DNA from: Siphonodentalium dalli
Taxonomy: Eukaryota; Mollusca; Scaphopoda; Gadilida; Siphonodentaliidae
NCBI GenBank assembly: GCA_032622095.1
Contig: CP136066.1
Coordinates: forward strand, 109,513,319-109,577,318
Length of the DNA: 64,000 bases
Reading direction: 5' to 3'
This document shows, piece by piece, positions 9,636 through 61,147 of this stretch. The position numbers and the translations under genes are program-made. The notes beneath the pieces were generated by a model. It was not told the DNA's origin. It did not search any database and saw only the letters and a list, made by a program, of their open reading frames with translations. Each line of letters begins with the position of its first letter. Position 1 is the first letter of the stretch.

Positions 9636-9803
9636 ATGGATTGTTCCACATAGACCTCAGAATTTTGGTCAATCATCTTGTCTTAAGACCTCCTGAGATA
9701 TCTCTTATTAAGTTTGATGCCGATTGATGGACATCAAACCGATGGAAAACTTTTAAACGCATTACCTACTTACATGTTTATGTGGTATTAGACCAACGTC
9801 ACA
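9636..9803 (+). other. Possible 5' UTR exon of the CARD/TRADD-N gene
   Basis: A strong pyrimidine-rich acceptor (cttttctctcttcag, ending at 9635) lies 168 bp before the start codon, so this may be the 3' part of a spliced leader exon. It contains a five-codon upstream reading frame (ATG 9636 to TAG). No promoter element was identified. Confidence 0.3.
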
Positions 9804-10218
9804 ATGTCTGATCACTCAGATGAAGATACAGACAACACTAGGTCATCCAGGCTTCTTCTAGAAAGAATAAAAAATCTGGAACGGGAAAAGGCAGAACTCG
9901 AAACCAAAGAAAATGAGAAACAACTTCTGAAAAAGTTGAAAGAGTTAGAGGGAGATGTAAAAACAATGAAGCAGAAAAAGACGAGTACTCCTATTCGGTC
10001 ACCAGATGAGTCTCATAGCAAGTCTAAGTTCAAAAGTCCCAGTGGCAGACGGTCACAAGAGTTCAGGAATGTCTCATTTGATGACAATGATTCTGTGCTA
10101 TCGGAAATCCAGTCTCGGTTTCGATCCATACCTCATACATCAAGACAAGATGTGGATCAAGCTGAGGAGCCCGATGATTGTGACGAGACATCAGAGGAAG
10201 ATGATGGATATATTAAAA
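9804..10218 (+). CDS. CARD/TRADD-N gene, exon 1 (coiled coil)
   Basis: The exon encodes residues 1-138 plus one base and ends at AAAA|gtatgt. Heptad-like leucines with Glu/Lys (SRLLLERIKNLEREKAELE) predict a coiled coil, so the protein probably oligomerises. A Ser/Lys segment and a DE-rich segment follow. Reading on into the intron would add only 14 residues before a TAA. Confidence 0.85.
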
Positions 10219-13200
10219 GTATGTTAATCTGTAAATACATATTATCACTATGTCGACGGTGAAGTAACCTGAGCCACCTTATCACATCTCGTTGAGAAGA
10301 TGAGATTCTGGATCACATGTGGCGAGGCTAATCCGTGTTCTTACCTTTTCAACAAGACGTGATGTGGTTAATCATATAGTTGATAAATATGAGCAAATAG
10401 CCACAATTTTTCTTATAATTAAATCACGTTAGCAAGAACCCATAACCCATACTTTCAGGTGCCTAATAATAGTGTCAGCACGATTAATCATTTTGGAGAA
10501 AATTCCCAATGATAAATATTATTTGGCATTGAGACATAAAATTAAATTGCCATCACTATTATTAATTTCAGCCTAAATCCCCACCCATCACTATTATTAG
10601 GCACCTGAGAGTAGCGAGATAACATCGGTCAGAAATTTGATCATAATGAATCAGCGAATGAGTTCTATATTGCTTGTTTGAGGCGATTTGACATGTCTTA
10701 GTTTGAATTTCATATACTGGTACACTGAGTTGGGTCTATCTATCTATTGGAATTTTGCAGTCAGTATATACATGAATACCTGTAGCAGTCATCAAGAAAT
10801 GAATACTAATTTATTGAGGGTTGTGTGACATGTACCTTCACTGGCCTCGATTTGTTTTTTAAAAGAATTGTTTAATTATTAATTTATGACTGACCACCTG
10901 GGAGGGACCAGGACTCCCTATACCCAGTGGAAGAAAATTTGGCAATTTGATCATGAAAACTGCAAAATCCTAGCATCTAGAGGTTCATCGATATTTCCAG
11001 CAAATTTGATCAACTGATTTGGCCAGGTGGTCATGACTTCACCTATCACTTCCAATTGACAAAATTAGAAGTACATTTTGGGAATTCACATACTGAAATC
11101 AATCATCTGGGTAAATTGTGAAATTTTACGCTAGAGATAGGGAACGTATGCTACCTTTGGCATTGTTAAAGGGGCCTGTTTTCGGGATAATCCCTAATCT
11201 GGTCTGGATAGGTGAAGAAAGTTTCATAAAAGTTTCCACTTAAATATAACAACTTCTATTCTCATGCTACTGGTATACTACTTACCATAGTGTATAACAC
11301 ACTTATTCTATTTTTCATGTTTTCAGCCGAAACTGTGATGTCAAATGAGAAAAAGCAGAGACTTCAGAAGAACAGAGATACTCTAGTCGAAAACGTGATT
11401 CCAGAGGATATATTCAATGATCTCATTGCGAATAAAATTCTGTCGACAGCTGACGTCGGTCGAATTAAGGAAAAAAATACCAGAGAAGCAATGAACGAAG
11501 AGCTTCTCAATATCTTGGGTCGACGTTCAAATCGAGCATTTGAAGTGTTTGTTGAATCACTGAGAAAGACACTGCAAGGTCACCTGGCTGACATCATTGA
11601 TCCTTCTTCCAGACATAAAAAGAAGAATAAAAGGAAAAGAAAGAGCGGTTAGTGATAATGGATAATTTAAAGATCCTCGGTCCGATTTGATGCCAAATAA
11701 TCCCGAATTTTCTCATCCCATTTTCTGCCTACCAGGCAAAAGAAAATGAAAACCATCATATCACACCGGCATTGCGAAAAGGTAATAATTTACATTGAAA
11801 ATCGATCACAAAAGCTCATAGTTGAGAACATTCTCTATTATCTTCTGCTTTTGGGCGACAGAAGCCTGGACGCTCTTTATGAGAGACAACCATTATCATT
11901 TTTGCTGGGCTGACAAAAATGCAAAAGTGTGTTAAAACTTCCTCTTTTGAAACTTTGATAGTCGATACCTTACCATCAAAACTAGGCTTGCCGCGATTTT
12001 GGGAATAATAGTTCAAATAACAATGCATATTATACAACAACACAAGAACGCTGGCATACAGCGTATTTGGAAAGAACTTATCTCAACTTAAGAGGCAATA
12101 TTTTGCACCGTACTAACAGCACTATTAATCTAACCCAGAAACCCACCCACGCAAACATTTGTGACAATGTAACTTTCAGTTGCGGCGTCTTTTGAGGTCG
12201 GGCCGACATAGTAATCTAGTTCCGTCTTGGTTTCACGTCACGGTGGTTTTTCTTTTAATGTGCCGACGCATGTGTATACTCCGCGGCACGCGTGATAGTA
12301 GTCCAAGTCTTCTTGTACTAAAACCAGCTAAGATATTGGGATGGTGATGCTGGTGTTTAGTCCAAGACCGCCCTATATGCTCGCTTATGACACGGCTTAA
12401 GCGTTAGTGACCCGCTCAAATAAAACCACAATTATATGAAATAAAATATCACAATTGCGACAATAAACGGATATTTTCCGCAGAAGACATGCTATTTTAT
12501 CTGAAACCCACATCAGTTGTGAATTTAAAACGGTAATTTAATGCGAAAAGAGACATTTACCTCAATGTTTACAATTTTTTAAAAGTATGCGAACTCGGTT
12601 GACCTCGCGAACTGTGTTCGGCATTTTCCGTTGAAAATATTCCGTAGATTTTGGACAACAACGCAAATTACGAAGAATTCTCCATTGTAATCGTAATTAT
12701 GTGTGTCAATAAATAAAATAATAAATAGATTAATTAAACATTGAAGATATAAATGTAATACATTAAATAAATTACGGGGAATTACAACCCTCTCAAAGTT
12801 TAAAACAGTGTAAACACAACGAGTATTAGAATAAATAATATGGTGCTACATTTCCCACATTTGGTGGACTTCGGCGAAATTAAGATATATACTAAGCGAA
12901 CAGAGCAATATACTGCTCTTGTTAAGCACACAAAAAATCAAAAAAAATTTGTATAAATTTTTAACCTTAAGTTTGAAAAGTCCCACTAAAACGGAAGAAC
13001 TATATTTCGAAACTGTGTGATTCGGTTCTCTGATTATTTTATCAACACAAAAGTCAAAATGCACATGGATGAAAATCACACGCATGGCAAGTCAGACACA
13101 AGAGTTCTAATTTGCTCCAATTTTGACAAGTTGCTTGCGAAAATTGTCAACAAAACTACCGTTCTGATCCTCCATTATGTCATTAAGTTTTTAGTGCGGG

Positions 13201-16200
13201 AATTGTTCCGAAAGCACATAGAAAACTGGACTTTCGGGCGATCGGTTTTCGCCATTTTTGTTCGGAAAACCCGCGCTATATATAGAAACGGAAAGTAGAA
13301 TTCCCAGAACAAACAGCGGATTATGCCGAACTTTTCGGACCACTTCGGCTTTCGGTTAAAACGTAAACAAACAGAGAAACAAATCGATGTTTGTGGCAAT
13401 CAACCGGAATATTCTATGTGTAATTTAACATTAAAGTTAGATTATTATACACCATTATGACCATAAGATGTAAGCCTTTCCGATGTATATAGCATCATGT
13501 ATTGATTTGCTAGGTAAATCGAGTAAAATACACCACAAATTCCCACCACAGATCGTGGGCGTAACTCGTGTGATAGGATTGGTATACAAGCGGGCTTGGA
13601 CTAAACACCAGCATCGCCATCCCAATATCTTAGCTGGTTTTAGTACAAGAAGACTTGGACTAGCGTGATAGCAGATGTTCAGCGGTCACGTGCTATTCCA
13701 CTTTTGAAGTTTTCAATTGGTTATGGGTATTGACAATCGAATGAATTGAGAGATTCCCGACTTTGAATTAAGGCACGATCCCGAACTTCAAATTCAATTA
13801 ATGCACGATCCCAAATTCACGAACAGGCTCATGAAGCACGTGGCCCGACGAGAGTTGGGAGTATTTTTCCGATTTTTTTGTTTAATCAAAATGATTTCTG
13901 AATCTGCTTAGTGCTTACATAAAGTTCATAAACTATGAGTAATTATTTTGTTCTTATTGTTTAATAGAGGCATTTGAATTTATATGGGAGCAAATTCTCA
14001 GAACTAATGCCCTTCATTTCCGACGTGCGGTGCCCGTAAAACGGGAGTTATACTTACCATCTTACACTTACCAGACGCACCTCTTAATAGTCTCTTTTTT
14101 GCCACCTATTTACTACAAATTAAATCTCTATTTGAGATTTAATTTCATGGGTTGAAAAATCGATTATAGCCACTGATTAATCAATTTTGAAAATCCAAAA
14201 TCGCGGCAAGCCTAATCAAAACCTCATATTACCAGTAAAGGGCTCATGCATCCGATCTAATTTTATGGTTTAGAAAACGTACAGATGCTGTTAGATGGTG
14301 GTTTTATATTGTCAAATCTTGAACCCTTCGATTCCTAAAATGATTCTCCTCTTCAGTTCTAAAAGTATAAATTGGAATTGTCTAATCATGATTATATTTG
14401 TAAGGATGTTTTGATTATACAGATAGATGACAGGTGTCCAGATAAACATGCTATGTTTCCCTTTTATTCATTTGTAAGGATGTTTAGTTACAAGTTCATT
14501 AAATATAAAATACCAAAAACTGGACCAGGTTTGTGTAATCTATACAATAGAATAAGGTTCCGGCTTAACCTCCTAGCAAAATATAGCATGAAGACGAATC
14601 AGCTGTTATGAATCAGCTGGATTGACAATTTAATTTGATTTCTGTTCCAATCTGATTATTAAATCAGATTGGAACATAAATCAAATTAAATCTTTAACCT
14701 CTGTACTTTTTTACCAAATTTTGTATGTGAGTTTATCAGCTCAAAACGCAGTTCGAATATGAGTTCGGTACACCCATTTTTGCTGGAGTTATGACCCTTT
14801 TTTGACTTGGAATCTGTCTGCGTCCGTCAGCTCGGAAAGTTTTCGGATGATAACTTTTATTTTGGTTTATCAGATCAAAACCCAATATGGTATGTCAGTT
14901 TATGAGCTCAAAATACAGGTCAAGTTCGATTATGGATTTGGTACGCCCATTTTTGCTGCAGTTATGGCCCCATTTCGACATGATCGGATCTGAACCAAAT
15001 TTGGTATGTCAGGTTATCATCTCCAAATACAGGTCAAGTTCGGATATGGGTTCAGTCCGCCAATTTTGTGGTCCTACTCGACTTAGAATTTGCCGATTAT
15101 TTTGGTTTGCGGATGATAACTTGAGTTTTTGTAATCTGATTGTTTTTAAATTTGGTACGTATGTGAATTAACCACATGGAGATACAGATCAAGTTCGAAT
15201 TTTGGTTTGGTTCACCCATTTTTGCCGGATTTATGCACGGGGGGAGAACTGCGACGTGAGGATCGGTGGCATTCCGATAAAGAGACGGTGGAATTCCGAT
15301 AAAGAGACGGTGGAAATCCGATAAACGAGACGGTTCGCTTTCGGCGACAAACAAGATTTTCTTCGTGTTTGGGCATTCAAACGGAATTGCCGTGACAAAT
15401 CAGGTTTCATATCATCAATATCGTTATTTAAGTTACTAATATCCATCAAAATCTAGACGCTACAGTGACTAAAATCAAGAGAATAGCCATTTAAAAGTCA
15501 CGCGATGGTTCGTTTTCCGATAAAAGACACGCGACGGTTCGTTTTTATCGGAAAACGAACCGTCGCGTGACTTTTAAATGGCGATTCTATTGGTTTTACT
15601 CACTGTATTCAATGAATTTTGCTGGATTTCAATTTACTTGTTTCTATAAAATTTCACATTTGGTGGGGGCCCCCCGGGGGGGGGGGGGGGGGGGGGGGGG
15701 AAACATATTGACGATGCGACCTTTGTCATGAAATAGGCATGATCAAAGACTGATAAGATTTTATCTAACATAAGCACTACATCACAGTATTATCAAACTA
15801 AAAAATGTTGAAATGCCTTTAGTTCGGAAAATAATATTTCTTTTACATGTAACTTATTTTCATTTTCGTTTCAGGTGAGATTAATGTCAGTGTTGACTGT
15901 GGAGACGTGACACCCCTCAGCAAAAAACGGACAGTGTGTACATGTGAAGAAGTGGAGCAGCAGATATTAGAAATGGCTAAAAATGCATTTAAACATATCC
16001 GCCGACGTGACGGAACTCCAGCATCCTTCGAACAATTCCGTAAGGAGCTGCAGCAAACAAATCTAGTCATCAAAGAATCATTAGAAATCTCAAACACGCT
16101 CAAAATACTATGCTCTCAGTGCCGATCGCTTAGTTGTGTAACTGATGGTAGTGTTGTCATTGTGTTGTTGTGTCACACGACACATGGTTTGCTGGATTTA

Positions 16201-19200
16201 TGGAACATGTACATCACTGGGAAGCTGTTGCAGATAATTGAAAATGGCTTCCTAAGCAAAAGTCTGATGCTGCGACTGAATATTAGTGCTGTTAAGTTGT
16301 CCGTTAGAATCTCCAAGGATGAATTTGTTCAGTGCATGAATGAGCTAAGTAAGTATCATGTTAAGGCCAAAAAAAATAGTGTTTTGGTTCTCTGGCAATT
16401 TTTTTGTCAAATCAACGAGAGAGGGTTTTATTTTTATTTTTTATTTTTTTTCTGCGCATAGTAAGCATGGACAAAGATACCTTCCTCTGTCTAGTAATAA
16501 CCAGAAAGGTAGAGGGAACTGTTATGCATATAAACTCATTTAGTCTTATATAAAAATGACATTGTACTACCAGTGTATGACTGGGATTACCTAACAATAT
16601 ATAATGCCCCTGACATTAACTACTGTTATTGTTGTCTAAAAACTGATACCTCCCCATTCTAATATGTGATCCTGAATTTAGTCCTGTGCCTTTCAATTGT
16701 ATAAAGTTACAATTAGTGTAAGTTGTTCACAATGACTAATTGTAAGAAGAGCATGAGGATCAGCTAATCATTTTCTTAATTGTAGTCATCTACTTCATGT
16801 TGTAAGCCTGCAAGTCACTTTTTAACACATTAGATGTTAGAGCTCAATGCACACTAATATTCAACACTTATCTGCTATGGACATGTTGATATATATATAT
16901 ATTTTTTTCAAATTTATTTTTTAAGTTTTTTTGTCATAACATCAGGCATTGCAATAAAAAGGCCTAGTGCGGCCCTTTTTATACAATGCGGCGGGGCGTG
17001 AGAACCAAAACCTTTTTTTTTTTGGCCTAATGCTTTGATTATTCAATTGATTCCCCATTAAATTCTAAAAGTATGCAGCGGTCCATTCTTCATCAGGTAC
17101 CATGCTGGCCCACAATTTACTTTTGTCAAATGAAACTATTTTTTTGTCAAATTCTTTTAGTGGAAGTTGCCAAATCCTTGATTGCTCTCGCACACGTATG
17201 CTCTTGCAGTTAATACTTCATGGGTGCTAAAATTTGCACTCGTCCCTCTTGTCAAAATGGTCACTATAATCAGTGATTCAATATTAAACTATTTGAAGGT
17301 ATATTTAGAGCCTTTCCCATGTCAGTTAAAATTACATGTATGGGCATGCGAAGTGTAACTGGACATAGGTCTATCCACAATTGCATTTTGTTTGTGAAAA
17401 TTCCAACTTACGATTATATTATGGACGCAATTACACCCGTCTTCTGAATTTGCGAGAGCAAATAAATGCTCTCACTATGTTTTCCTTGTGGGAAGGACTG
17501 CCAAATGATATTGTGTTGAAACTAAGGGGATTTGTAGAAATTTGATTCTTATGTGTTAAAATTGCTATTTTACCATTTCATGATGGCAGCTGCGCTGATT
17601 CAGCATTAAAGCTCATGTGCCAGTGCATTCTCTTATATATGCGAGTCTCCCATAGGGAACCTCACATATATAAGAGTATGCACTAGCTTAAAAGGTCAAT
17701 TTAAATAGTGTTAGGCCAAAGTATTCTCTAATATATGCAAGGCTCCCATATATAAGAGAATGCTACTCATGCGTAACATTCACACTCTGTGTTGTACAGA
17801 GTTTATCAACAAACTATAGTTGATCTATGATTGATCACAATTGTTCCCACCACACCGTGATGAACAGTATAGTCTGATATTTATTGACGGGCGAATTCAG
17901 AAATTTTTCAATCTAAACCGATCAACACAATATACATTTTATTTCTATGCACAGCTATCTGTTTATGTTGATCTGAAATGTTTCTTATTTTAGAATTAAA
18001 ACAGCTAAAGCAATCTTCCTGTCAAATAGCTATCCAACATAGGAAGAGTCCAGTCTGTACAAGGGTAAGTGTGTGTGACATAGAGACATAGAGATAAAAG
18101 TCTCAGTTTGAGTATTTTTCACCTTCTAGATCACGAAATTCTTATTATTTTTGAAAAAAACTCAAAGCTTTCTTTCCCAAGTCCTTGTTTTCATTCTGCC
18201 CAAAATATTTCAATTCTCAAGCTCCACACATCACTTTCTGTTCCTTAATATAACAAATATCTTGCCATTTGAAATGTATTTTATTCCACAACCGTTAAAA
18301 ACAAATAGTTGGGTCTCAGATAATTATTTTTTCTCTGAATGAATGAGGGAGGGAGAACTTTATTTTTATTTTTTATTTATTTTTGTGCACATCGTAAGTG
18401 TTGACTATATGGTAGCTTCCCTTGTCTAGTAATGGTTAGAAAATGTAGAGGGAACTTCTTTGTTTATATGAAAATGTTGGGGTTTTTTTCCATCCAAGCA
18501 GATATCTCACCCATACTTTGTCGGTTCGAATTTGCCACTGTGGGGGTATGCCAGCACCAGCGGTGATATCTCTTGTCGAATTAAGTATGTATACATGTGA
18601 ATGATGACACTTAATTTCTAAGCTGAGTGTATACCGTATTCTCGCGGGTATAAGCCCACTTTCGGGCATAAGACCACCCCAGTATTTTCACTAGAAGTAA
18701 GTTTTCCGGGGTATAAGACCACCCCCTCCCTAGCCCTAATCATAACCCCTCCAAAACGGCTTAAACTCGGATATGGGCCTTTGCAAACCAAAAATCGGGG
18801 TAAAACTGATGAAATAGATGAAAGCCGAGTATTGGGGAATATCCCCGGCTTCCAGATTAAGTAAAGGTAAATAGGCCTATAAGTTACTTTAAGAAAGTGA
18901 TTTTTCAATTAAATGTGAATATTAAAATATTATAATAACACTTGTCTTGTTGTTTTATTGCCCAACATTCCCATAATTCACGCCATAAATGACACTATTA
19001 AATTTTGTAAGCAGTGTGGGTAAATCCCGCATCTATAGTCTATAGTAGTCTATAGTTTATATCAATGTTCAGACTTAATCCGATTAGGAAACTAATAAAC
19101 CCGACGCTTTATTCATGACCCGTTGTCCACATAGAGGATGTTACAATAGCGACTAATTGCATGTTTAACAAAAGCCAGTGAGTGTAATTATTTAACACTA

Positions 19201-22200
19201 ACAGTACTGACAAAAGACAGTTATATTTCTGCTAAAAAAGCACGTGTTTTAATAAATAGAGTTATCGCTCCTAAACTGTTTATACTGTAAAACGTGAACA
19301 AAATGCAGGTTAAAAATGTTAATGTCAATAACCTTTATTTTGGTTATAACGTTGATGTTGTTTGGAAGACATTGTTGTTCAATGACAAGTTCCCCTTCTG
19401 CTTCATTATTATACCCACTGTGTGTTTACATAACCAGGAAGCCAGTTCTCTGTGTTTGGTTACATGAAGGAACATACCGACGTTGTCACTGAACGCGAAA
19501 AATATGTTTTTACAGTACTGTAGTTGGACAGACACCTGTGGCTTTGTACGCGCATAGCCGCGCATCGCTTTTGAACTTGAAGCTACATACCGGTATATAC
19601 GCCGTTAGCGACTCGGTTCTTTTGTATTTGGTGTCTGTTAATGATTTGTTTCCCCGGGAAGCTGCGGGAAGTATAATTTAATAAACAAATAAGATTCACT
19701 TTATTTTATTTTATTGAATATTCTCGATCATGCCTACGAAGTATACTTTTCAGTTTTGAATATAAATATTAAATTTCTCGAGTTCGTCAATCTTTTTTTG
19801 CTGTCTACAAGCTGATATCAAATACTTACCACCACTGAAATTGAACAAAATTTGGGGTGGGCTTAAACTTTTCCGGGGTATAAGACCACCCATGCCTTTT
19901 CAAGCTATTTATTCCCTAGGCCCCCTGGTCTTATACCCGCGAGAATACGGTAGTTCTAACTACTTATTTTGAAGTAAATTTGACAAAGACTGACTTCCCA
20001 GTCTTCATCTTTACAGTCAGTTGAGCGACTCCACAGTCTATGACTGTCTTGTTATAACTATTACTGAATACATGTACTACAATTCACAAGCATTTACTAT
20101 TCCAGTCATGCACTCCATATTTTTAAACAATTTTTTACGTCATCTTGGGAAAGCTCCTTGTCTTAGAAATAGGATCTGAATAGGAAGTCTAGAGACGTAA
20201 AACTCATAAGATTATCGCTGGCTTTTTAAAAGACTGATTTGAACCTATATGAAATAAATAGATAAATAATTATACATCGTACTGGACACAATAGTCTGTC
20301 AAGTTACACTATTAGTTCCAATGTGTTATTATGCCCCTGACCCTTCGAAGGATGATTCGTTGATGTATAGGCAGGGTTTCCGCCAGGGGGGAATTAATGA
20401 GTCTGTATTGGGGAAACACATACGGTAACGTGACGGGACGACCATGGTTCGTCCTGTCGGGCGAAAATTTTGTTATTTGACACTGAAAAGAAGCCATTTT
20501 CTTGCACCTGAGTGTCCCACAAAGCGATCCAAAGCTACGTATATTATGCAAGTCGATCATTTCCGTGGGTGCATTAATTCTGTTGATGGTATCCAAATAG
20601 TTAGTCATTTAATTACGTATACGTAAGACTGCCGTCTGATTGAAGACTATATAAATGAACGAGTTTAATACAGTGTTTACAAATTTATAACTTACAATAA
20701 GATTCCAACAGGTATATATAATGAATCTAAACACTAAAAAGCATCTACACATTCAAAGTTGACCAATAATACCTAGCAAGGAGAATTGAATAAAGTATTT
20801 CTTAGAATTTCAAGTAGCGTCAGTGAAAATGAAACTGACAGGATATATTCTGTCAATCGTAAAACTATTTGTGCGCGGTGACGTCATACTGCAGGGTTTG
20901 TCTGCAGGAGATATTTATAGCAGCGAAATACGAATGATAGCGAAATCTTTCACCCGGAACGCGTAGCTTGTTCAATAGTCTGTATTAGTCCAACAACTGA
21001 TGACCGCAGCTATAGAACATAGTTTTAGCCAACGTGTTATAAAATATAATTGAGTTTTTGGCGGGAAATGTGAACATGTGCGTCGTTGATTATTGTGCTT
21101 GGGGACCCAGGCGGGACAACGAAACTATTATTGACCTTACTTTGACTTTATCTCCATTTGGGGGGGGTATGTGTTCGTGTTTATCCTCCACTAGCAGGGT
21201 TACCCGGCATTGCCCAGGTTAAAGTGGTGTGAAACCGTCTGCATATTGTGGATAAATGATGGGAATAGATCATACTCTTGCTCAAAGCATTACACATATT
21301 CTCATAAATTATATACCCAAATAGCATCACAAAACATGATTCTTACACACGGAATATAAGTAGTAGCTCACCTTGTCGGATCAGAGCGAATGTCATTTTG
21401 TTTATCGCGATTAATCCGTCCCACCAATAAAGGACTATCTATTTATTTACAACTACGTATATTTCAGACGTTATAACATGAACATCATAAACACATTAGT
21501 TCGCAAAAATAAAAGACGACAATTGGGTTTTACATAGAGATGTATCAATCAGTCTAGTAGGTTTGACTAAGATTTTGAGGACACCTGATTATCATATCTC
21601 CATGAAGATACAGATGTTTTAAAGAAATATCCAGGTGCTCCTCTGTTCATTGTGCTATATACTGGCTAATTGTTCTCAGTTTAAAAGAAATGTTGCTATG
21701 AACTATATCAGCTACATGTGCCCGACACAGAGCGAGATTTTGAGTTGTTTATGTTAGGCGATGAGTCTGTTCTAAAACATGAAATATATCCTCTGTATAT
21801 TGGGCAGATATAACCTTGTCAGATGTCAGTATTGGAGGATCCTGAAAAGTCATGTGCCACTGACTCCGTTTTCTTTTATCTCAGAAGAAATTACATTGAC
21901 GGCACACTGTGACCACTATTGTTGAACAGGCCTTCTATTCATTTCCATATCTCTTGTAACTTTTTTGTGGAAACTATATTGAATGGGGCAGACTCAATTG
22001 TGTTATAATATTAACATGAGCTATTCTAATATTTTAACATGCGCCATTATCTTCCTCATAAAAAGTTAGAACGCCTTTGTACCATCTCGATTGTACCCCG
22101 TGAAGTTACAGACATATATTTGCAAATATATTTAGGCACCAAATGTGATGTTTTTAACTCGCACGATTTGATTCCTCGTATCATTTGAGAAGAACGTGTA

Positions 22201-22870
22201 TGAATTTGATGCTAATTGGCACTAAACATATTTCTATCAGTTGTGGTGACCCGCCCGTCCTTATTTCGGACTCAAGCGGCACCACATTTGACATCATTAA
22301 ACCACAAACTTAGACTCATTATGGAGATGAATATATATAAAATTGTTGAAAATTGGTGAGTACACAAATTCGTATCAAATTTAAGCCCCCTTAGCTCTCA
22401 CCCAAACGACACCAATTTGGCGTATTTAAACCACACGTTTAGATTCCTCGTATCACGGAGAAGAATATGTATCATTCTGATGGAAATCGGCGCTAAACAT
22501 ATTGTTTATCCATTTTTGTGTCTCTCTCACCTCTGTGGACCCCTGTCTCGAATGGCACCACTTTTGACATCAACCACACAATTAGACTCCTGATATCATG
22601 GAGATAAATATTTATAAGTTTGGTGCTAATCGGCGACTAATTTTTTTTTTTTTTATAAAACTTAGTGCCCACCACACCATCTCTCACACAAACAATACCA
22701 ATATAGCGTCTTTGCAATTTGGTGGAAATCGGCCCCTCTGATTTCCAGTGCAACCCCGACTCGAATGACGCCACTTTTAACAGTTTTAGACTCCTCATAC
22801 CATGTGGATCATTTTGTATAAGTTTGGTAGCAATCGGTGACTAAACCAACTCTTATCAAATTTAGTGCCT

Positions 22871-22907
<37 letters not shown>

Positions 22908-25900
22908 CCATCTCACACTCAAACGACACCAATTTGGGGTCTTTAAATCACACAATTAGATTCCTTGTTTCATGGAGAAGAATGTGTATTAATTTGGTGT
23001 AATGACGCCACTTTTGACAACATTAAGCCACCCCATTAGATTACTCATACTGTGTGGATGATTTTGTATAAGTTTTTGTATAAAATTTGCGAGTATACAA
23101 ATTCGTATAAAATTTAGGGTCCCCATATCACTCATCAAAACAGCACCAATTTGGCGTATCTAAACCACACGATTATATTTTCTCGTATCACTGAGAATAT
23201 GTATCAATCTGGTGGAAATCATATTGTTAATCTTTTTTGTGTTCCTCTCACCCTCTTTGCATCCTGACTCGAATGTCCCCACTTGTGACAGCTTGTGACA
23301 TCCTTAAACCACAAAATTAGACTCCTGATATCATGGAGATGATTATTGATAAGTTTGGTAAACTGATTTTGATCAATTTAGTGCCCACTAACCCCTATCT
23401 CTTACCCAAACAGCACCAACATCACGTCTTTAAATCACACGATCAGACTCATCGTATTATGGATAAGAATGCATATCACTTTGGTGGAAATCGGCGTTAA
23501 AATTAGTTTCATCAATTTTGGTGCCCCTCTCCCCTTCCGTGCATCTCTGTTGCGAATGGCGCCACGTTTGACATATTTAAACAACACCATTAGATTCCTT
23601 ATATCATGGGAATGATTATATAAAAGTTTCGTGGCAATCGGCGGCAAACATTTGTTCTACCCCTCCCCCTTTTCTGCCCCTGACAACGGCGTCACTTTAA
23701 AAAATTCTAACCAACACCATTATCTTTCTCGTAAAAAGTTACCCCTAGTAGACCGTTTGGTGCCATCTAGATGGTCCCTCGGCGCTAAACTTAGTTTATC
23801 AATGTTGGTGCCCCTCTCCCCTTCCGTGCACCCCTGACTCGAACGGCGTCACTCTTGACATATTTAAACCACACCATCAGATTCCTTATATCATGGGGAT
23901 GATTATATATAAGTTTTGTGGCAATCGGCGACAAATTTTTTTTTTCTGCCCCTCCCCCTTTTCTGCCCCGGACAACAACGGCGTCACTTTAGAAAAGTCT
24001 AACCCTCACCATTATCTTTCTCGTAAAAAGTTACCCCTAGTAGACCCCTTTGGTGCCATCTCGATGGTCCCCTGTGAATTTCTATAGAACACAGACAGAC
24101 AGACAGACATTCGCAAATATAGATATAGATGCATGTAATATGGCTCAATTGAATGGTGTTCTCATGCACTATGAATTCCCGCTATAAAGACTGATTTGGG
24201 ACAGGTTCCGTATTATTGTGAAATAAATCACTTTGGGATTTTGTTAAGTATGCATGGCAATATACGCATAATAATCAACACACGTAGAGAATCACATGTA
24301 TTTTTCAGGAACTTCGCTTACCGGTACATCGAACTCAAAAACAAATGGTAATACAGCAATAAGATAAATGATCAACATTGAGTAGTTTCATCCACGAAAA
24401 TCCCGTGCATAAAAATATCCCCGACTCAGCAATTGGGTGTTCTTTGATCCAATTATGTAATCGTACGATAGCACGGGGTCTTCGAGCGTGAATAGTTTCA
24501 TCCATGGAATCCCGTGCACAAAAATATCCGCACTCAACAGTCCGGCATTCTTTGATGTTACACGCAACATGTATTACGCTGTATCTAATGTCGCTATTTG
24601 ACATGCTCTTTCTTATTGTTTTTTCGGGAGATGGACTGTGTCGATTTCATTTTGTCAATATTAATGAAAATAAGTGTAGATATATAGCCTGTTGACACAG
24701 ACAAGACTGAAAAAGTTTTTAATAACGTCATTTATTTATGTATGAGCGGGATTTCATGCAACGACCGATGGGGGAATGGGTCCGTGGGACGGACCCGCAG
24801 CCAGCCTGGCGGAAACCCTGGTATAGGGGAGACCTTCATCCGTCTGTAACAAAAATTTCACAACTCAGTTCAAGTATCTCACATAGTGCATGTTTTGTCT
24901 GCACTTTTTTCCAGAGATATGGTTCTTTTCTGGACTTGGTGTCAAACACATCAATGCTCCTGTCCGTCCGTAATAAACATTTCACAACACATCTCAAGTA
25001 TTGATAGTCTAATTTGGATGTCCTTTGGTATGCCAGTAGACCAGCATTGTGGAAATGATCTCCACATAGTGCAGGTTTTGTCCACACATTTTTCCACAGT
25101 TATGGCCCTTTCCTGGAATTAGTGTAAAATGCATCATAACAAACATTATGCTGTGGATGTCCTTATTATTGGATTTCGTTGTCCTTTGGCATGGTGATAG
25201 CACAGGTTGGGGGAAAGGATATCCACATACAATGGGTTTCATAATTTATTATTTTTTTACCAGATTTACGGCCCTTGTTTGACTTAAAAATTTGTGAATT
25301 AGTGTCTGAAAGAACATTTCAGATTGTAACTTGGGCAAGGATCTTCTGATTCAGTTGTGCTTTGGAATGTTGATAGCCCAGCTTGGGGGAAAGGATACCG
25401 ACTTACTACAGGTTTTTTCCATTCATTTTTTGTAGAATCATTTAATTTTTATCAGAGTTACAGCCCTTGTTTGACTTGGGAATTTATTAATTTGGTTTCT
25501 GTATGAACATTTCAGGTTGCACCTTTGACATGGATCATCAGATTTGGTTGTGCTTTGGTGTATTGCACGCCAGTTTAATGGGAAAGAATACCCACTTATA
25601 TATTATATATTTTAAAAAAAATTCCATTCATTGCCCTCTCTCTCACGCTTGGCATTGCACTTGTTTTTTTTATTTACTTATTATGTGTTACACTAGATGA
25701 TTCTATATTAAGATCATAAGTTCCATAAAAATAAGCATGGAAGCCTTCAAAATACCATTACTGTAAGTCTGTTATTGGTTAATATTCTGCATGTCTGGAC
25801 AACAAGGTAGCGAGGAGTATTCTGTTCACAGTACATGTATTGATATTCTACACTGTATTCTCTGATGCCTTTTTATCTGATAATATTTCAGAGTATGACA

Positions 25901-28900
25901 AAGACGAGTTCAGAAAATGTTGCAGTTCCTATCCATTCCAGTAAAAACGCAGTACCTACATGTATGCATGCCAATAAGATGCCCAGGAGAGCTTTCTCAG
26001 AGATGTAAGTTGGAAAAATTTCTCTTGGAGGTTTCATACCTATCATATAACCTCTTCACTGCTAAATTGTGTTATTACGTCATGTGTTGGGCTGTTCACA
26101 TGGCTTTTGTGTTATAGAGAAATAAAACGTAAATGTTGTTAAAAGACATAATAAGGACTTGTTCGGGTGTGTGAAACTGATAAGTTATTATTCAGTCGCT
26201 ATGCCAATTGGAGGAATGTAGCATTCTAATAACATCGTCGAAAATATCAAGAAAATCAACTTTACCACTCCATAGAAAATATCGTCTGTACTGCGCTCAA
26301 TTGTAAATATTTGCTTCTCGAAACAGGACACAACTATTTGCAATAAACTAAAACCAAAAAGTATTTTGCCGTCAAGTGCCACTACCTTTAATTAATATAT
26401 AAGAATGATGGTGTGGGTTGTCAATTTGAATCAAATATTTGTAAAAAATAACTACTTTGAGCTGTTTTGAGCAAGATTATTCTCCATTTATTTTTATCAC
26501 CTTACTGGAGTGTTTCACATCACTTTAAAGTCCTACAATTTATCTGGGACGGAGGCTGTTATCTGGAACTCTCCATCCACATCCAATTATCATTGACATT
26601 GTTTAAAATATTGAATATATCTTTCCAATATAAGCTTAACGATGGGGTTCATGTAGTTTGCTGAATTTTCATAGCGGTCAAAACTCATGACCATGTTGAA
26701 TCCGCTGTTTATCACTTATATAGAGTTATAATCCGCTGTTTATCACTTATATATTTAAATTCATTATGAATTAGAATTGATTTATGTCTTTCCCACTATA
26801 TATTCAACTTCAATTGAACTGTTGGAGATAGTTCAGATAGTACATTTTATGTTGGAATCCTTACTTTTAGAAAAGCAAACATTTAATTAGTTTTGGATCA
26901 ATAACCCCATTCATGGTGGGGGGGGGGGGGGGGGGGGGGGCTGCTAATGTCACACTATTTTGCTGGTCAAATGGTGGAGATGACAGAAAGCGGAGTATAG
27001 CAATTTTGATTTAGAATACCCATGCGGGAAAATGTCAGGATTTCATTTAAAAAAGTGTAGACATGTCAATTAAGTGTTGGTTGTGGAAAAGAAATCCACA
27101 ATAGTCTGTTGCGCCATATACGGATATTCTTGTGAAGTCGGGGGAATATATGGTGAAAGGAAAATTATCATTTGATACATAAAAGGGCAGCTATTTGAAC
27201 TTCAGACCTTAGTAATAAGAACGTATGTACATGTACAACATCGTTCAGTTGTGCATTTGTCAGTTGCATAATAATGCTATTGTGAAATTTGTGCACCCAC
27301 TTGTTCCATGGTGTTGATGTAAAAATATCCAATAGTAGTGAATAGGAACCTTACACAATGGAACGGATTTATCTCAGTCATAACACCTTTTATGCACAAC
27401 ATATTTCATTGCAATTTAAAAACAATAAGGGATTTGTAAAAGCAGCGTTTTCAGGTGTTGTGAGGGAATCTCTGAATGTCAGTACTGTAGTTCTCTTACT
27501 TGATTTGGAGTAGTCATTCATATCCGACAATCTCTTGTGATTCACGGAGTAAATGTGTTCATAAACCTATGAACACATTGACTCAGTGGCAGGGTTTCTG
27601 CTAGGGGTTGGGGGAATGTGGCCGTATTTGGGAAGCACATACCCTGTGCCCTGTCGGGAGAAAACTTGGATGTTTATCACTAAAATGTAGCCATTTCCTT
27701 GTACCTGAGACAACAAGCAGGAACATTGAATCTTCCTATAGAAGCCAAATTAAAACAGATCATCTTTCGTTGATCTCAAGTTAATGAACTAAAAGCATGC
27801 AAGCACCACAATGTACAGTGGATACAACGACTTTATAACAGTAGCAATTTAACCCGACATCAAAGGAACTACTGGGGTTGGCAAAAGAAACATTGTCACT
27901 CAGTGTCAAGTGCACTCTAGCAGTAAACCAGAGTGATGTTACGAGCAGAGCTCATGTCATGCGGTAAGTCAGGTACTGCATGCTTTCTTTGTATTTTGTT
28001 CACAGTACCACTGAATCAAAACAATTTGGTGTAAAATCAAAAGCCATTCCTCAGATAGAGATGACCTCATGCTGGATTCGTAGAATGGATAATTTTTTCA
28101 TTAATTGGATAGGGAATAAATACACTGATAATAACTATTAATATTTTAATTGTTTTATTTTTAATTGAACATTTCTTTGATATAGACCTTGTTTTGAGGT
28201 AAAATGTCTGCACTGTTCGTCACAGCGACTTCCAGACCTCACCTGTCTTCATGGTTGTAGCTCAGAATTCAGCCCCCTAATGACTATATATACCGATGTA
28301 TAATGCGCATTTCGAGGGGAAATAGTGGGTCAGAAATTTGGGACTTATAGACAGAAATCTAAGGTAAATTAAAATACGAGAGGCTGATCACAACTAAACA
28401 TTCGCCGAACTGTGCACGTGGTCTGCACTACTGATCATGTCTTATTCATGCACCAAGTACAAGATTCCTTGCAATCTGTTATTCATCAGTGTCAGTGATC
28501 GCTCGTCCCATGTAAAAAGGGGGCTGAGCTAGGTCTGTGGCTATTTTGTGGCCAATATTAAGTCAAGGTTGGGGAAGGGAATGAGGCTGCTCAACGGCCG
28601 CCCTGCCATAGTAGCGGAAACCCTGCTCAGTGGGTGTGTCCATTGTAATGATATGGGAAAATCAGAACTAATATCAAGTGTATGTAAATCTGTTCAGACA
28701 TTTTGAATTGTAACTCCAGTATCAATGTCCGACTTGAATGCTGTCTGGAATCCTAATAGTCAGCATTAGTGTTAGGTAGCAATACACAATTTCCAGCAAT
28801 TGTGGCCAACATATTAGGGGGTACTGTACTTCAAATCTATACTGAGCCATTATGTTTGGCATAGGTCCAATCAACCATGTTTAGCTCAACATGACAAAGT

Positions 28901-34900: not shown

Positions 34901-37313
34901 TTAGTGATACTAGCCCGCTGTGCAGGATAGCGTCACTAAATTCACCCTCTGGGGACCTCATTCTGCAAATAACAGACAGACTATTTCAAGGCTTGATTGT
35001 ATAATACATTGTGTTGCTTGAAGCCAGACAATTACAATGTAGGAACAGACATGCTTTTAGTGATGCTATCCCACACAGCGGGCTAGCATCACCAAATTCA
35101 CCATCTGGAGACCTCATTCTGCTTAGGCCTCATCTTCTGGGAAGTATCTATAGTATCAAATTTACATTGTTGTTAGTTAAATTTCCCTTCTAGGAAGTTT
35201 CTATATCCCCTAATTTGCAGAAGATAAAATTCATAATTGAGGGGCCCAATGGGTGAACATCACCAACTTCAACTGGGGAAATTCAATTTTATTCTAGATC
35301 TTCCATAGCAGTTGAGGGCCTTATCAGAATGAGGTTCCCAGAGGGTGAATTTAGCGTCACTAAATTCACCCTCTGTGGACCTCATTCTGCAAATGACAGA
35401 CACACTATCACACTATTTCAAGGCTTGATTGTATAATACATTGTGTTGCTTGAGGCCAGGCATGCACAATGTAGAAACAGACACGCTTTTTGTGATGCTA
35501 TCCCGCACAGCAGGCTAGCATCACCAAATTCACCCTCTGGAGACCTCATTCTGCTTAGGCCTCATCTTCTGGGAAGTATCTATAGTATCAAATTTACATT
35601 GTTGTTAGTTAAATTTCCCTTCTAGGAAGTTTCTATATCCCCTAATTTGCAGAAGATAAAATTCATAAATGAGGTGCCCAATGGGTGAATATCACCAACT
35701 TCAACTGGGGAAGTTAATTCTTGTCCTTATCAGATTTGTGAAAATGGGATCACAAAGTCAAATAAGGGCAGAGCAAGAGACTTAACTATTTCACTACATA
35801 GTAATTCTTAAAATATGTTTGCAAGAACTAGTTGGCTTATATAGAATGGAATGTTCTTCCTTGACTGCAATTCAGATTTTTTTTAATGGGGTCACCTGGT
35901 CAAATAGGGGCCAAGCGAAGGACAGTTTCCCTCTTAATATGCTTCCTTCACAAGGACCATCAGGTCTATTTTACTGATATTTATGATATGTATGAAGGGT
36001 TCTTTGGTGTCTGGGATTCAAATTTATTCAGATGGGGTCACCAGGTTAAATAGGGTGGGACCAGGGACATAACTATATGTCTCTATAGTAATTCTTAAAA
36101 TGTCTTCTCAAGAGAGTTTGGACTATTTAGCTTTAATACATATAGTATGGAGGAATCAGGAGGATCCTTTAGTGACTGAGATTCAGATTTGTTAAAATGA
36201 GGTCAACCTGTGAAGAAATGGCAGGCTATGGGGAGTTAACACTTTTGTGTCCAATAAAATCATCGAAATACCAAATTCATTAAAACATCTACCTTGGAAC
36301 CACTGACTGATTGGTCTGACATACATGTATTGTGTTTTGGGTCCATGGATAATTGGGCTTCAAACATGTTTAAATGGTTTTAGAAAAAGGCGCTTGTGAG
36401 ATTGGAAATTTCCAACAATTGAGAAAGTTTGAGGTGTCGGTTGTGAAATTCGAACCTAAGACTTGGGAGTCTGGAGCCCGGTCGGGAGGGGACTTGTTGA
36501 GCTGGAGGAGGGGGGTGATCAGTAGTGTACAGTTGGCAATTTCAAGGTGGATTTTCACCAAGCTACATACTTGAAGTCTCTCTAGCCACATATCCTGTTT
36601 AAATCTACTTCTTTTAAAGTGATTATGAAAAGAGCTGACTGTTTTGGTCTCCAGAGTCCCAGTCTTATCAGTCTTTGCAGTCTGGTGAGCGACCCCACAG
36701 TCATTGACTGTCTTGTTTGTGAACTTTCCCAGTTTCTTAAAATAATTAAACCTGTCACATTTAACACAGGCTACTCTAGCAGTTATGCCCCTCAGAGACT
36801 TATTTTTGTATTTTTTCAGACCCCCTACAACCCTCTATATCGTGTACTCTGCCTCAGCATATGCAATGGATTTCATCCACATATTTTTGTCCTTTCATCA
36901 GAGCAGATATTTCAGTCATAGGTATACAGATCTCCATAAAATTTGGTATGGATGTTGGCTATCAGCAGGGCTTTCAAAGAAGTGTTCAATGATCTTGCTT
37001 GATCTTGTATAGTCATTGTGCATGTGGAAAAGCACATTTTATTTATTCCATCCAAGCGGATGTCTCAGTCATAGGTTATCGGATCTCTTTGAAATTTGGT
37101 AATGATGTTGGCTACCAGGAGAGCTTTGATAGAGTTTTTTTTAATAAAACATAACTTATTGTATTTTGATTTAATAAATTTGTATTTTTTTTGTTTTACA
37201 GAACCAATATATCTTCATCACCACAAGAAAACACAGCACAAATAAAAACAGCAGGTCAACATGAATTTGTCACAACATATAATACGCGATCTAGGCCAAT
37301 GAACCACAGATGA
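9804..37313 (+). CDS. CARD + TRADD-N-like death-fold adaptor (six-exon gene, 501 aa)
   Basis: Exons 9804-10218, 11327-11647, 15875-16348, 17994-18064, 25892-26004 and 37202-37313 have AG/GT borders and matching phases (1,1,1,0,2), giving 1506 nt with one terminal TGA. The start is the first ATG after an in-frame TAG at 9789-9791. Residues 1-138 hold a charged coiled coil (about 17-57), a Ser/basic stretch and an acidic patch. Residues about 146-229 read as a CARD, with RLQKNRDTLVENV, LLNILGRRSNRAFEVF and LRKTLQGHLADII closely following caspase-2/RAIDD CARDs. A Lys/Arg-rich linker (about 232-245) could be a nuclear signal. Residues about 328-403 resemble a TRADD-like N-terminal domain (GSVVIVLLCH, LLDLWNMYITGKLLQIIE, then a strand and helix). 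The tail 404-501 is Ser/Lys-rich without a recognised fold. Inferred role: homotypic CARD recruitment in apoptosis or innate signalling. No enzyme motif is seen. Exons 1-3 are firm; exons 4-6 rest on splice sites and frame only. Confidence 0.85.
10452..10611. mobile_element. CTCTCAGGTGCC-family MITE in intron 1
   Basis: 160 bp, TA flanks, ends CTTTCAGGTGCCTAATAATA and TATTATTAGGCACCTGAGAG. The remainder of intron 1 (10219-11326) shows nothing recognisable. Confidence 0.85.
11327..11647 (+). CDS. CARD/TRADD-N gene, exon 2 (CARD domain)
   Basis: The acceptor is tttcag|CCGAAAC and the donor GCG|gttagt. The whole CARD lies in this one exon (residues about 146-229), followed by a cluster of Lys/Arg. 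The helix pattern and the closing KTLQGHLADII are typical of caspase-2/RAIDD CARDs. The donor contains an in-frame TAG (11650-11652), so retention of intron 2 would give a short coiled-coil/CARD protein. Confidence 0.9.
11983..14214. mobile_element. hAT-like element with perfect 8-bp TSD, host of a nested element
   Basis: Inverted ends TAGGCTTGCCGCGATTTTGG and CCAAAATCGCGGCAAGCCTA (20 bp, perfect) are flanked by ATCAAAAC on both sides (11975-11982, 14215-14222). It is 2232 bp in total, about 860 bp without the inner element at 12299-13662. No transposase domain is recognised, so it is non-autonomous. It lies in intron 2 of the CARD gene. Confidence 0.9.
12299..13662. mobile_element. Long-TIR element with 9-bp TSD (MULE-like), nested
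   Basis: Inverted repeats of about 75 bp with few mismatches start TAGTCCAAGTCTTCTTGTAC at 12299 and end with its complement at 13662. GCGTGATAG flanks both sides (12290-12298, 13663-13671). Long TIRs plus a 9-bp duplication suggest a Mutator-like element; the terminal bases are not diagnostic. The open frames inside (12846-13399) carry no recognised transposase. Confidence 0.85.
14690..15240. repeat. Degenerate tandem-like repeat in intron 2
   Basis: Related units of roughly 110-150 bp recur, with motifs GGTATGTCAGTTTATGAGCT, ATACAGGTCAAGTTCG and CGCCCATTTTTGCTG. Just after, at 15270-15335, CCGATAAAGAGACGGTGGAA occurs about three times in tandem. No gene. Confidence 0.65.
15463..15605. mobile_element. 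CAGTGA palindromic MITE (TA target)
   Basis: 143 bp with TIRs of about 65 bp. The ends CAGTGACTAAAATCAA and TTGGTTTTACTCACTG are flanked by TA. The arms GACTTTTAAATGGC / GCCATTTAAAAGTC make it almost one hairpin. Tc1/mariner-type target. Confidence 0.85.
15664..15700. repeat. Poly-G tract (25 G after GGGGGCCCCCC)
   Basis: A homopolymer with strong quadruplex potential, 175 bp before exon 3. Its true length may be uncertain in the assembly. Confidence 0.9.
15875..16348 (+). CDS. CARD/TRADD-N gene, exon 3 (TRADD-N-like domain)
   Basis: The acceptor is gtttcag|GTGAG and the donor CTAA|gtaagt. It encodes residues 246-403. The first part (247-327) is helical and Cys-containing, with VCTCEEVEQQILEMAKNAF. 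The second part (328-403) has the beta-strand, tryptophan-bearing helix and strand order of TRADD-like N-terminal domains. Family assignment is by eye. The opposite-strand open frame over 15843-16103 is an antisense shadow. Confidence 0.85.
16425..16525. repeat. Short dispersed repeat in intron 3
   Basis: A T-rich run then CTGTCTAGTAATAACCAG and GTAGAGGGAACT resembles about 18345-18460 (TTGTCTAGTAATGGTTAG, GTAGAGGGAACT). Other parts of intron 3 (16526-17570) show nothing beyond AT-rich sequence. Confidence 0.55.
17571..17785. mobile_element. Decayed TTAA hairpin MITE in intron 3
   Basis: It contains GCCAGTGCATTCTCTTATAT, GAGTCTCCCATAGGGAACCT and the complementary arm, with a left end resembling CCATTTCATGATGGCAGC. 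The TTAA flanks are not preserved and the right end is cut. Confidence 0.7.
17994..18064 (+). CDS. CARD/TRADD-N gene, exon 4 (71 bp)
   Basis: The acceptor ttatttttag and the donor AGG|gtaagt enclose 71 bp that stay open in the incoming phase (ending ...KSPVCTR) and leave phase 0. No domain is recognised. Support is splice consensus and frame only. Confidence 0.65.
18345..18633. repeat. Dispersed repeat remnants at the start of intron 4
   Basis: It holds a second copy of the 16.4-kb T-rich repeat and a segment with CCAAGCAGATATCTCACCCA and GTGGGGGTATGCCAGCACC, a repeat also seen at 36890-37140 and 38150-38960. No gene. Confidence 0.55.
18634..19950. mobile_element. TA-flanked DNA transposon, 1317 bp, non-autonomous
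   Basis: Ends CCGTATTCTCGCGGGTATAA and TTATACCCGCGAGAATACGG, with TA on both sides (18632-18633, 19951-19952). Subterminal repeats GGGGTATAAGACCACCC occur near both ends. The small minus-strand frames (18618-18908, 19344-19565) carry no transposase motif. Tc1/mariner/pogo-type target, class inferred. Confidence 0.85.
19953..20371. other. Non-coding intron 4 segment
   Basis: A short repeat at about 19985-20060 (TCAGTTGAGCGACTCCACAG...CTATGACTGTCTTGTTAT) recurs at 8620-8665 and 36680-36720. Nothing else seen. Confidence 0.5.
21191..24128. repeat. Degenerate array inserted in copy B
   Basis: It begins CTAGCAGGGTTACCCGGC and ends in a (CAGA)n run and ATATAGATATAGAT. In between, diverged units of roughly 150-190 bp repeat, with motifs such as CACCAATTTGGCGT, AAACCACACGATTAGA, CATGGAGATGAAT and TTTGGTGGAAATCGGC. 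Copy A lacks it (TTATCCTCCATGTATGC), so it is a later insertion. No coding sequence. Class unknown. Confidence 0.75.
22872..22906. repeat. Poly-C tract (about 35 bp)
   Basis: A homopolymer inside the degenerate array, G-rich on the minus strand. Confidence 0.9.
24828..25640. repeat. Degenerate tandem-like repeat, end of intron 4
   Basis: Diverged units of about 150-180 bp recur with TCCTTTGGTATGCCAG, GGTTTTGTCCACACAT and GTTATGGCCCTT, on either side of AT-rich spacers. No gene. 25641-25891 shows nothing but the exon 5 acceptor. Confidence 0.6.
25892..26004 (+). CDS. CARD/TRADD-N gene, exon 5 (113 bp)
   Basis: The acceptor is aatatttcag|AGTATG and the donor AGAT|gtaagt. The exon is in frame with exon 4 and encodes a Ser/Thr/Lys/Met-rich tail. 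The donor itself supplies an in-frame TAA (26006-26008), so intron retention would end the protein at once. Confidence 0.6.
26143..26530 (+). repeat. Dispersed repeat R26, full copy
   Basis: The order AAGGACTTGTTCGGGTGTGTG, CCACTCCATAGAAAATAT, TTAATATATAAGAATGATGG, GATTATTCTCCATTTA and GAGTGTTTCACATCAC is repeated at 54235-54605, and its end at 335-470 in reverse. The family is unknown and no coding part is evident. Confidence 0.7.
26918..26940. repeat. Poly-G tract (23 bp)
   Basis: A homopolymer in intron 5. The flanking stretches 26531-27581 show no gene or clear repeat. Confidence 0.9.
27590..28625. mobile_element. CAGGGTTTCC element, copy C (1036 bp, perfect 8-bp TSD)
   Basis: Ends CAGGGTTTCTGCTAGG and TAGCGGAAACCCTG, flanked by CTCAGTGG on both sides (27582-27589, 28626-28633). 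The left interior matches copy B (CCTGTCGGGAGAAAA, AGCCATTTCCTTGTACCTGAG). The 8-bp duplication supports hAT-type integration. Confidence 0.88.
28634..29523. other. Intron 5 stretch, weak repeats only
   Basis: At 28880-29340 there are diverged motifs of a dispersed repeat (TTTAGCTCAACATGACAAAG, GTCCGTGTGTGCGTGTG, CTTCATATGGATCCTC). No gene. Confidence 0.5.
29941..32745. repeat. Tandem array with about 920-bp super-period (AGCTCC..GGACA units)
   Basis: TTGTAACTCCCAATAATCGG starts near 29941, 30861, 31795 and 32574. The first two periods (920 and about 934 bp) share full-length content including CAAACTTGAAATAAACTTCC and TTGCATATGCAAACGAATCC; the later ones are shorter. Within each, pairs of the 33-36 bp unit TAGCTCCCAATAATYGGACA repeat. 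A fragment ending ATTAATCGTTGCAGCCCTA looks like a hAT terminus captured in the unit. Confidence 0.8.
31929..32424. mobile_element. TTAA-flanked AGGYAC element (496 bp)
   Basis: Ends AGGCACGTGAGGCCTT and AAGGCCAACCGTACCT, flanked by TTAA (31925-31928, 32425-32428). The neighbouring array unit keeps the empty site GAACCCTTAATATTTGGACT near 31637. Kolobok or piggyBac type from the TTAA target; no coding part. Confidence 0.85.
33479..33573. repeat. Four-copy tandem repeat of CTCCTTGATATTGGACA
   Basis: Units of 27-32 bp differ mainly in the A-rich spacer. The core resembles the 29.9-kb unit (AGCTCC, then RATAWTYGGACA). Not a CRISPR: spacers are short and near-identical, and the DNA is eukaryotic. 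32746-33478 holds a small inverted repeat at 32884-32971 (CTCATATTCCC / GGGAATATGAG) and no gene. Confidence 0.8.
34020..34135. repeat. AT-rich low-complexity tract
   Basis: Runs of A, T and TA with TTTTATTTTTAAATAAA. No gene; 34136-34530 shows nothing further. Confidence 0.8.
34530..35710. repeat. 432-bp tandem repeat, about 2.5 copies
   Basis: GCTTGATTGTATAATACATT occurs at 34991 and 35423, a 432-bp period. Each unit holds an inverted pair AGAATGAGGTCCCCAGAGGG / CCCTCTGGGGACCTCATTCT around a short loop. The near-identical open frames at 35011 and 35443 reflect the repeat. A diverged copy lies at 46505-46860. Confidence 0.85.
35711..36740. repeat. Dispersed repeat, copy 2 (uninterrupted)
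   Basis: Collinear with 5840-6920 plus 8254-8690 but lacking both insertions there. It preserves the empty sites for the TTAA insertion (about 35930) and for CAGGGTTTCC copy A (about 36275). Confidence 0.85.
36785..37140. repeat. Diverged repeat before CARD gene exon 6
   Basis: Units with CAGATATTTCAGTCATAGGT and AAATTTGGTATGGATGTTGGC repeat here and again at 38150-38400. The last coding exon sits between two portions of this repeat. Confidence 0.6.
37202..37313 (+). CDS. CARD/TRADD-N gene, terminal exon 6
   Basis: A polypyrimidine run and ttttacag precede AACCAATA. The phase-2 entry continues the frame of exon 5 for 36 further codons to TGA at 37311-37313. The tail is polar (SSSPQENTAQIKTAGQHEF). 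No clear AATAAA follows in the next 600 bp; the nearest variant seen is ATTAAA near 37960. Confidence 0.55.
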
Positions 37314-37686: not shown

Positions 37687-37937
37687 CCCTTCCTTGGCGC
37701 CTCAAATTTTGCAAAAAAACCTGTGCCAATGCAATCTCTTACGTATGTGAGTCTCCCATAGGGAGCCTCGCATATATAAGAGAATACATTGGCCTAACAA
37801 TACCTTGACATTGTAAGCCAGTGCATTCTCTTATATATGTGAGGCTCCCTATGGGAGACTCGCATACATGTATATAAGAGAATGCACTGGCACAGGATAT
37901 TTAATGCTGCAACAATGCAGCTCCCATCTTGAAAGGC
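37687..37937. mobile_element. TTAA hairpin MITE downstream of the CARD gene
   Basis: Flanked by TTAA (37683-37686, 37938-37941). Two core hairpins read GAGTCTCCCATAGGGAGCCT and AGGCTCCCTATGGGAGACTC with ATATATAAGAGAAT arms. It starts 374 bp after the stop codon and may be transcribed in the 3' UTR. Confidence 0.85.
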
Positions 37938-38149
37938 TTAAAGACCAATTTGGTCGTCCATTAAAAAATAAGAGTTGATCAATGAGGCTCAGTTTGAAAG
38001 TCAATGATTGGCAAAAATACATTATATTCCATTGGAAAGCTCAATCGGATTATAAGTCATGGGGATAAGTCTCTGTGTCAGAAGTTATGTATTTTTGGGT
38101 GTTTTCCATTCTAGAGTTATCCATTGTTTACCTGGAAATCTTGGGGTTT

Positions 38150-44206: not shown

Positions 44207-61147
<16,941 letters not shown>

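Follow-up and report, generated by a model that had tools for sequence, protein, structure and literature searches.

A predicted CARD adaptor with a probable TRADD-N superfamily domain and a DEDD/DEDD2-like layout in Siphonodentalium dalli

The vertebrate proteins DEDD and DEDD2/FLAME-3 share a simple layout, in which one death-fold domain, a DED, is followed by a basic stretch and by a C-terminal TRADD-N domain. In DEDD, the basic runs lie between the DED and TRADD-N. Three nuclear localisation sequences have been described in DEDD, and caspase activation follows its nuclear localisation (PMC6599020), while DEDD2 is described as a nucleolar protein that has an N-terminal DED and interacts with cFLIP (PMC8195603). 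Proteins of the DEDD2 clade occur in molluscs, brachiopods, echinoderms, cnidarians and others. Their constant part carries a Death-like domain, as a rule a DED, adjoining TRADD-N, and proteins with Death-like and TRADD-N domains are expanded in marine invertebrates, bivalves included (Kaur et al. 2021, PMC8195603). Another animal clade of TRADD-N, the NCOA6 clade, is also expanded in bivalves, and adaptors made of a death-fold domain and TRADD-N were proposed as an ancient immune and cell-death switch (PMC8195603).

In the 64 kb stretch of DNA analysed here (the window), an earlier note had proposed a gene of six exons, and the reading frame was confirmed: the joined exons on the plus strand keep one frame for 501 codons, all five introns have AG/GT borders, and an in-frame stop codon lies 15 bases upstream of the ATG (Table 1). 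The intron between exons 2 and 3 measures 4,227 bases and the final two 7.8 and 11.2 kb, and the first AATAAA or ATTAAA past the stop codon is an ATTAAA at 37960. When codon scores were compared with those of random open stretches of equal length, exon 1 was matched by 0/130 and exon 2 by 0/589 of them. Exon 3 was matched by 0/12, a test that says little because only these 12 stretches were found and because its own score is negative. The scores of exons 4, 5 and 6 were matched by 198, 89 and 370 of 2,000 stretches, respectively, the value for exon 5 (4.5%) being borderline. Neither a domain nor a clear coding signal was found in exons 4–6 (98 residues) by the Pfam scan and the codon scores, and the protein through exon 3 is regarded here as the reliable part, with a tentative tail. 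Exons 2 and 3 are both symmetric, so that gain, exchange or skipping of either would leave the frame intact. The exon 2 donor (11644–11652) contains an in-frame TAG, so that the frame ends directly past the donor at 11650–11652, and an unspliced message would yield a CARD-only protein with a Ser-Gly end after the basic cluster.

Table 1. Coordinates of the predicted exons and of the features recognised within them
Feature	Position	Strand	Residues	Remarks
Exon 1	9804..10218	+	1-139	GT donor; preceded by an in-frame stop at 9789
Heptad-rich segment	9840-9989	+	about 13-62	in exon 1; heptad-like pattern only, no control
Exon 2, CARD exon	11327..11647	+		phase 1-1, symmetric
CARD	11356..11598	+	149-229	
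Basic cluster RHKKKNKRKRK	11611..11643	+	234-244	read from sequence
Exon 3	15875..16348	+	246-404	phase 1-1, symmetric; segment of unknown fold and TRADD-N-like domain
TRADD-like_N match (PF20694), sub-threshold	16108..16236	+	78-120 of exon 3	17.6 bits; E 0.0035
Gapless similarity to the C-terminal TRADD-N of DEDD2/DEDD	16147..16326	+	337-396	
Exon 4	17994..18064	+		without domain; weak support
Exon 5	25892..26004	+		without domain; weak support
Exon 6	37202..37313	+		includes stop codon; without domain; weak support

These exons could also belong to two products or two genes, with a CARD message ending at exon 2 and exon 3 residing in another transcript, perhaps one starting from Met279, which lies in frame ahead of the TRADD-N block and could start a separate protein. 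Such an arrangement would fit the Ser-Gly-stop obtained on donor read-through as well as the length of the intron in between, but we regard it as unlikely: donor and acceptor are good and share phase 1, the frame of exon 3 holds no ATG before its acceptor, both of which count toward a single CARD–TRADD-N gene, and a death-fold domain followed by TRADD-N is the established order in PMC8195603.

The predicted product is a CARD protein, and the CARD, like the introns, indicates a gene of animal type. Exon 2 matched PF00619 with an E-value of 3.8e-15 and 56.1 bits, above the curated Pfam cut-off of 23.9, the whole protein matched the same family (E 6e-14), and exon 2 also matched CARD_2 (E 3.8e-7), in agreement with the CARD that had been placed at about residues 146–229. 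The closest solved natural proteins by sequence were CED-3 (2.4e-4) and BCL10 (2.9e-3), with RAIDD at 0.57, which makes the earlier label of caspase-2/RAIDD-like too specific. The likeness to CED-3 and BCL10 concerns the CARD, whereas the remaining protein differs, no caspase domain being recognised here. The AlphaFold model of the CARD, generated from the single sequence, comprises six helical elements, of which the last spans 4 residues (pLDDT 80.1, pTM 0.58), and shows a helical death fold resembling solved CARDs. Foldseek gave 116 matches at E ≤ 10; among the best 50, three were designed proteins, the top one included, and the others were CARDs, CARD-like or CARD-containing, mostly CARDs; TM-scores in these 50 were about 0.4–0.57 with large rmsd and none reached E ≤ 0.001, while the Foldseek probability was near 1 for the best rows. 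The sequence match is the stronger evidence for the identity of the domain. DED (PF01335) was not matched in exon 2 or in the whole protein; the DEDD sequence gave 2.8e-13 on this model in the same library. Because the DED is absent, and a CARD stands in its place, the protein is not a member of the DEDD/DEDD2 family proper. Exon 2 had no relative in viral contigs, and neither exon 2 nor the TRADD-N part of exon 3 had an NCBIfam match.

For exon 3, the TRADD-like_N model (PF20694) gave 17.6 bits (15.4 on the whole protein), short of its curated cut-off of 23.7. Judged by E-value alone the match is not special: six other non-CARD Pfam families reached E ≤ 0.01 among 110 ORFs of the window, and one of these, DUF1667, sits in the exon 3 ORF itself. 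The match gains weight because the family had been named beforehand and because exon 3 matches DEDD2 and DEDD directly. For this family, a score from 17.6 bits up to the cut-off is also rare: when 386 cyanobacterial genomes were searched in six frames, with scoring limited to the candidates from a loose first look, eight rows fell in that range, two of them with internal stop codons.

In the pairwise comparisons exon 3 was aligned with DEDD2, DEDD and TRADD, leaving out the NCOA6 clade; the DEDD and DEDD2 sequences used as queries may be approximate, and their choice was not blind, as they were picked after a likeness to them had been noticed. The block given in Table 1 aligned without gaps to DEDD2 (18/60 identities, 31 positive; Smith-Waterman score 69) and to DEDD (16/60 identities, 31 positive; score 73), and 13 positions were common to all three sequences in the alignment. 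The DEDD2 score was reached by 0/20,000 shuffles (maximum 57) and by 0/20,000 block shuffles; with exon 3 reversed, the score was just 28. With gaps allowed, the best alignment to DEDD scored 80, which again none of 20,000 shuffles reached (maximum 66). BLASTP, run as a two-sequence search, gave 2e-6 for DEDD2 and 3e-6 for DEDD. In a six-frame search of the window with the DEDD2 tail, exon 3 ranked first (E 9e-4) ahead of a match at 8.5, and the best match in the reversed window had an E-value of 20; with DEDD as the query, exon 3 was absent from the matches up to E 100. The tails of both DEDD and DEDD2 pass PF20694. The aligned block is opened by Gly337-Ser338 (16147–16152), which is aligned to a Gly-Ser in DEDD2 and in DEDD and agrees with the motif of a tiny residue and a serine that is conserved in the beta2-beta3 turn of the TRADD-N superfamily, TRADD Ser67 being an example (PMC8195603); Gly337-Ser338 would accordingly be expected in that turn.

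The AlphaFold model was poor for exon 3 (pLDDT 41.9 from the single sequence), too low for a structure search, and the TRADD-N fold (RRM-like alpha+beta) is for this reason unconfirmed. A cyanobacterial TRADD-N profile, built from 27 matches with 26 unique cores (one, L068, cut at the wrong motif), gave 1.4 bits on exon 3, a value reached by 2,249 of the 18,345 scored shuffles, and 2.2 bits after TRADD was added (1,239/20,000 shuffles). Little weight is given to this null result because TRADD itself scored no higher on the cyanobacterial profile (1.3 bits, reached by 225/20,000 TRADD shuffles). Searches of viral contigs and of prokaryotic genomes gave no relative of exon 3. The best pairwise match among the 27 bacterial domains (score 59, reached by 4/2,000 shuffles) was not counted, since the Gly-Ser motifs were out of register.

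Could the resemblance be due to chance, exon 3 not being TRADD-N at all? The sub-threshold Pfam score, the poor AlphaFold model, the six chance-level families in 110 ORFs, the absence of exon 3 from the six-frame search with DEDD and the choice of DEDD and DEDD2 with the likeness in view would all agree with that, yet we find it improbable, as neither the DEDD nor the DEDD2 score was attained in 20,000 shuffles and the 60 gapless residues overlap the Pfam match. By similarity, though below the Pfam cut-off, the exon 3 domain probably belongs to the TRADD-N superfamily, and DEDD2/DEDD are the closest among the three proteins compared, an order based on pairwise alignments. The earlier placement of a TRADD-like N domain at residues 328–403 therefore holds in so far as the similar block lies inside it, but the likeness is to DEDD/DEDD2 and not to TRADD. 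The proposal that a CARD and a probable domain of the TRADD-N superfamily lie in a single frame is supported.

The protein is not a TRADD, with which it would share the TRADD-N superfamily. In a search of the whole protein against Pfam with E-values up to 10, just CARD, CARD_2 and the sub-threshold TRADD-like_N were listed; neither a C-terminal Death domain nor TRADD_N (PF09034) was matched, the latter being found in TRADD by that search, and TRADD and exon 3 showed no pairwise similarity, as 9,038 of 20,000 shuffles reached their alignment score. A TRADD-like adaptor tying TRAF proteins to a CARD platform is consequently very improbable, even if the Pfam model that gives exon 3 its 17.6 bits gives TRADD 48.2, because the similarity goes to DEDD/DEDD2 and both Death and TRADD_N are missing among the matches. 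The TRAF-type interface proposed in the earlier note is not upheld by these results; the MATH domain of TRAFs is, moreover, not a universal partner of TRADD-N (PMC8195603). Likewise, the contrast drawn there with vertebrate TRADD passed over DEDD2, in which a death-fold domain and TRADD-N are already combined, as well as the expansions of such pairs on record (PMC8195603).

The order of domains is that of DEDD and DEDD2, and the basic cluster between the CARD and TRADD-N corresponds to the basic runs of DEDD; from its composition it could be a nuclear localisation signal. Compared with DEDD/DEDD2, the N-terminal extension is longer here, a C-terminal tail is predicted, and a gapped alignment shows a net excess of about 20 residues before Gly-Ser. 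In exon 1, a heptad-like pattern is followed by a Ser/Asp/Glu-rich linker. The coiled coil that had been suggested for this region retains the pattern as its evidence, with no control, and self-assembly through it may be envisaged on that footing. The marine-invertebrate expansions described in PMC8195603 likewise have a domain of the Death-like superfamily followed by TRADD-N; there the partner is usually a DED and variable regions follow TRADD-N, whereas no such effector domain was recognised here.

We moderately favour a CARD adaptor laid out like DEDD/DEDD2 and possibly nuclear, in which a CARD would replace the DED and would be followed by a basic stretch and a DEDD2-type TRADD-N. The sequence itself shows the CARD, the common open frame and the similarity of DEDD2 type, while the Pfam score below the cut-off, the poor model and the negative codon score of exon 3 count against this reading. 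In such a protein the N-terminal helices might cluster the molecules and, once clustered, the CARD would nucleate or draw in a CARD partner, which might be an initiator caspase or a BCL10-like adaptor, whether in the cytosol or in the nucleus. TRADD-N may serve, by way of its Gly-Ser turn, as a switch or docking face, either keeping the CARD inactive or attracting a regulator. The nuclear location and the CARD partners are drawn by analogy with DEDD-type and CARD proteins.

The symmetric phase 1-1 of exons 2 and 3 would let the CARD exon be swapped in or skipped. Lophotrochozoan RLRs have acquired N-terminal domains of many kinds (CARD, DED, Death and others) via exon-intron changes (PMC8998645), and therefore offer a precedent for the swapping of death-fold exons. 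It is possible, though we hold it to be doubtful, that in an invertebrate a DEDD2-type protein received a CARD for its DED in this way and became a nuclear CARD platform. If so, a DEDD-style nuclear cell-death adaptor would have been rewired from DED caspases to CARD partners, such as initiator caspases, BCL10-like or RLR-MAVS-type signalling.

Adaptors with a death-fold domain and TRADD-N are a kind already published, and the CARD version looks like a new combination. CARDs are common among RLR-like receptors as a class. Since DEDD2-clade TRADD-N was reported fused to such receptors (PMC8195603), a pairing of CARD and TRADD-N may have been recorded already. A CARD paired with TRADD-N was not named in the literature searched, which consisted mostly of titles and the starts of abstracts, and a CARD is not named as a partner of TRADD-N in the sections of PMC8195603 that were consulted. 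With a CARD version, the death-fold half would prove exchangeable next to an unchanged TRADD-N half, and one could test whether TRADD-N, and not the death-fold domain, carries the conserved function.

The window has a G+C content of 34–39% (in 4 kb steps) and is rich in repeats. It contained no tRNA according to ARAGORN and no Rfam match at gathering score. The Pfam scan covered 224 of its 228 ORFs of at least 58 residues (four low-complexity ones were dropped), and the six families found at E ≤ 0.01 besides CARD, CARD_2 and TRADD-like_N (best 0.0023 in the 224 ORFs) are taken as chance matches, curated cut-offs being absent for most of their rows. A search for paralogues within the window gave one match outside the exons, at E 9.7.

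Repeats of several kinds occur in the window. A 1.3 kb element in intron 4 (18632–19952) has 23 identical inverted end bases starting from TA (TACCGTATTCTCGCGGGTATAAG) and looks like a non-autonomous DNA transposon. Eleven copies of a palindromic element (65–80 nt, ...CATTCTCTTATATATGCGAGTCTCCCATAGGGAGCC...), at least 60% identical to a reference copy, are spread over 9288–59941 (e.g., 17603–17667 and 37709–37865), some of them paired; they include copies shortly before exon 1 and about 400 bases beyond exon 6. Fold-back elements with arms of 77–106 nt, separated by 3 to 68 nt, occur at 45647–45861, 52530–52735 and 60293–60514. Two nearly identical tandem units of 450 nt (97% matches) make up positions 61731–62633, and unbroken runs of 35 C and 38 G are located at 22872–22906 and 56208–56245, respectively.
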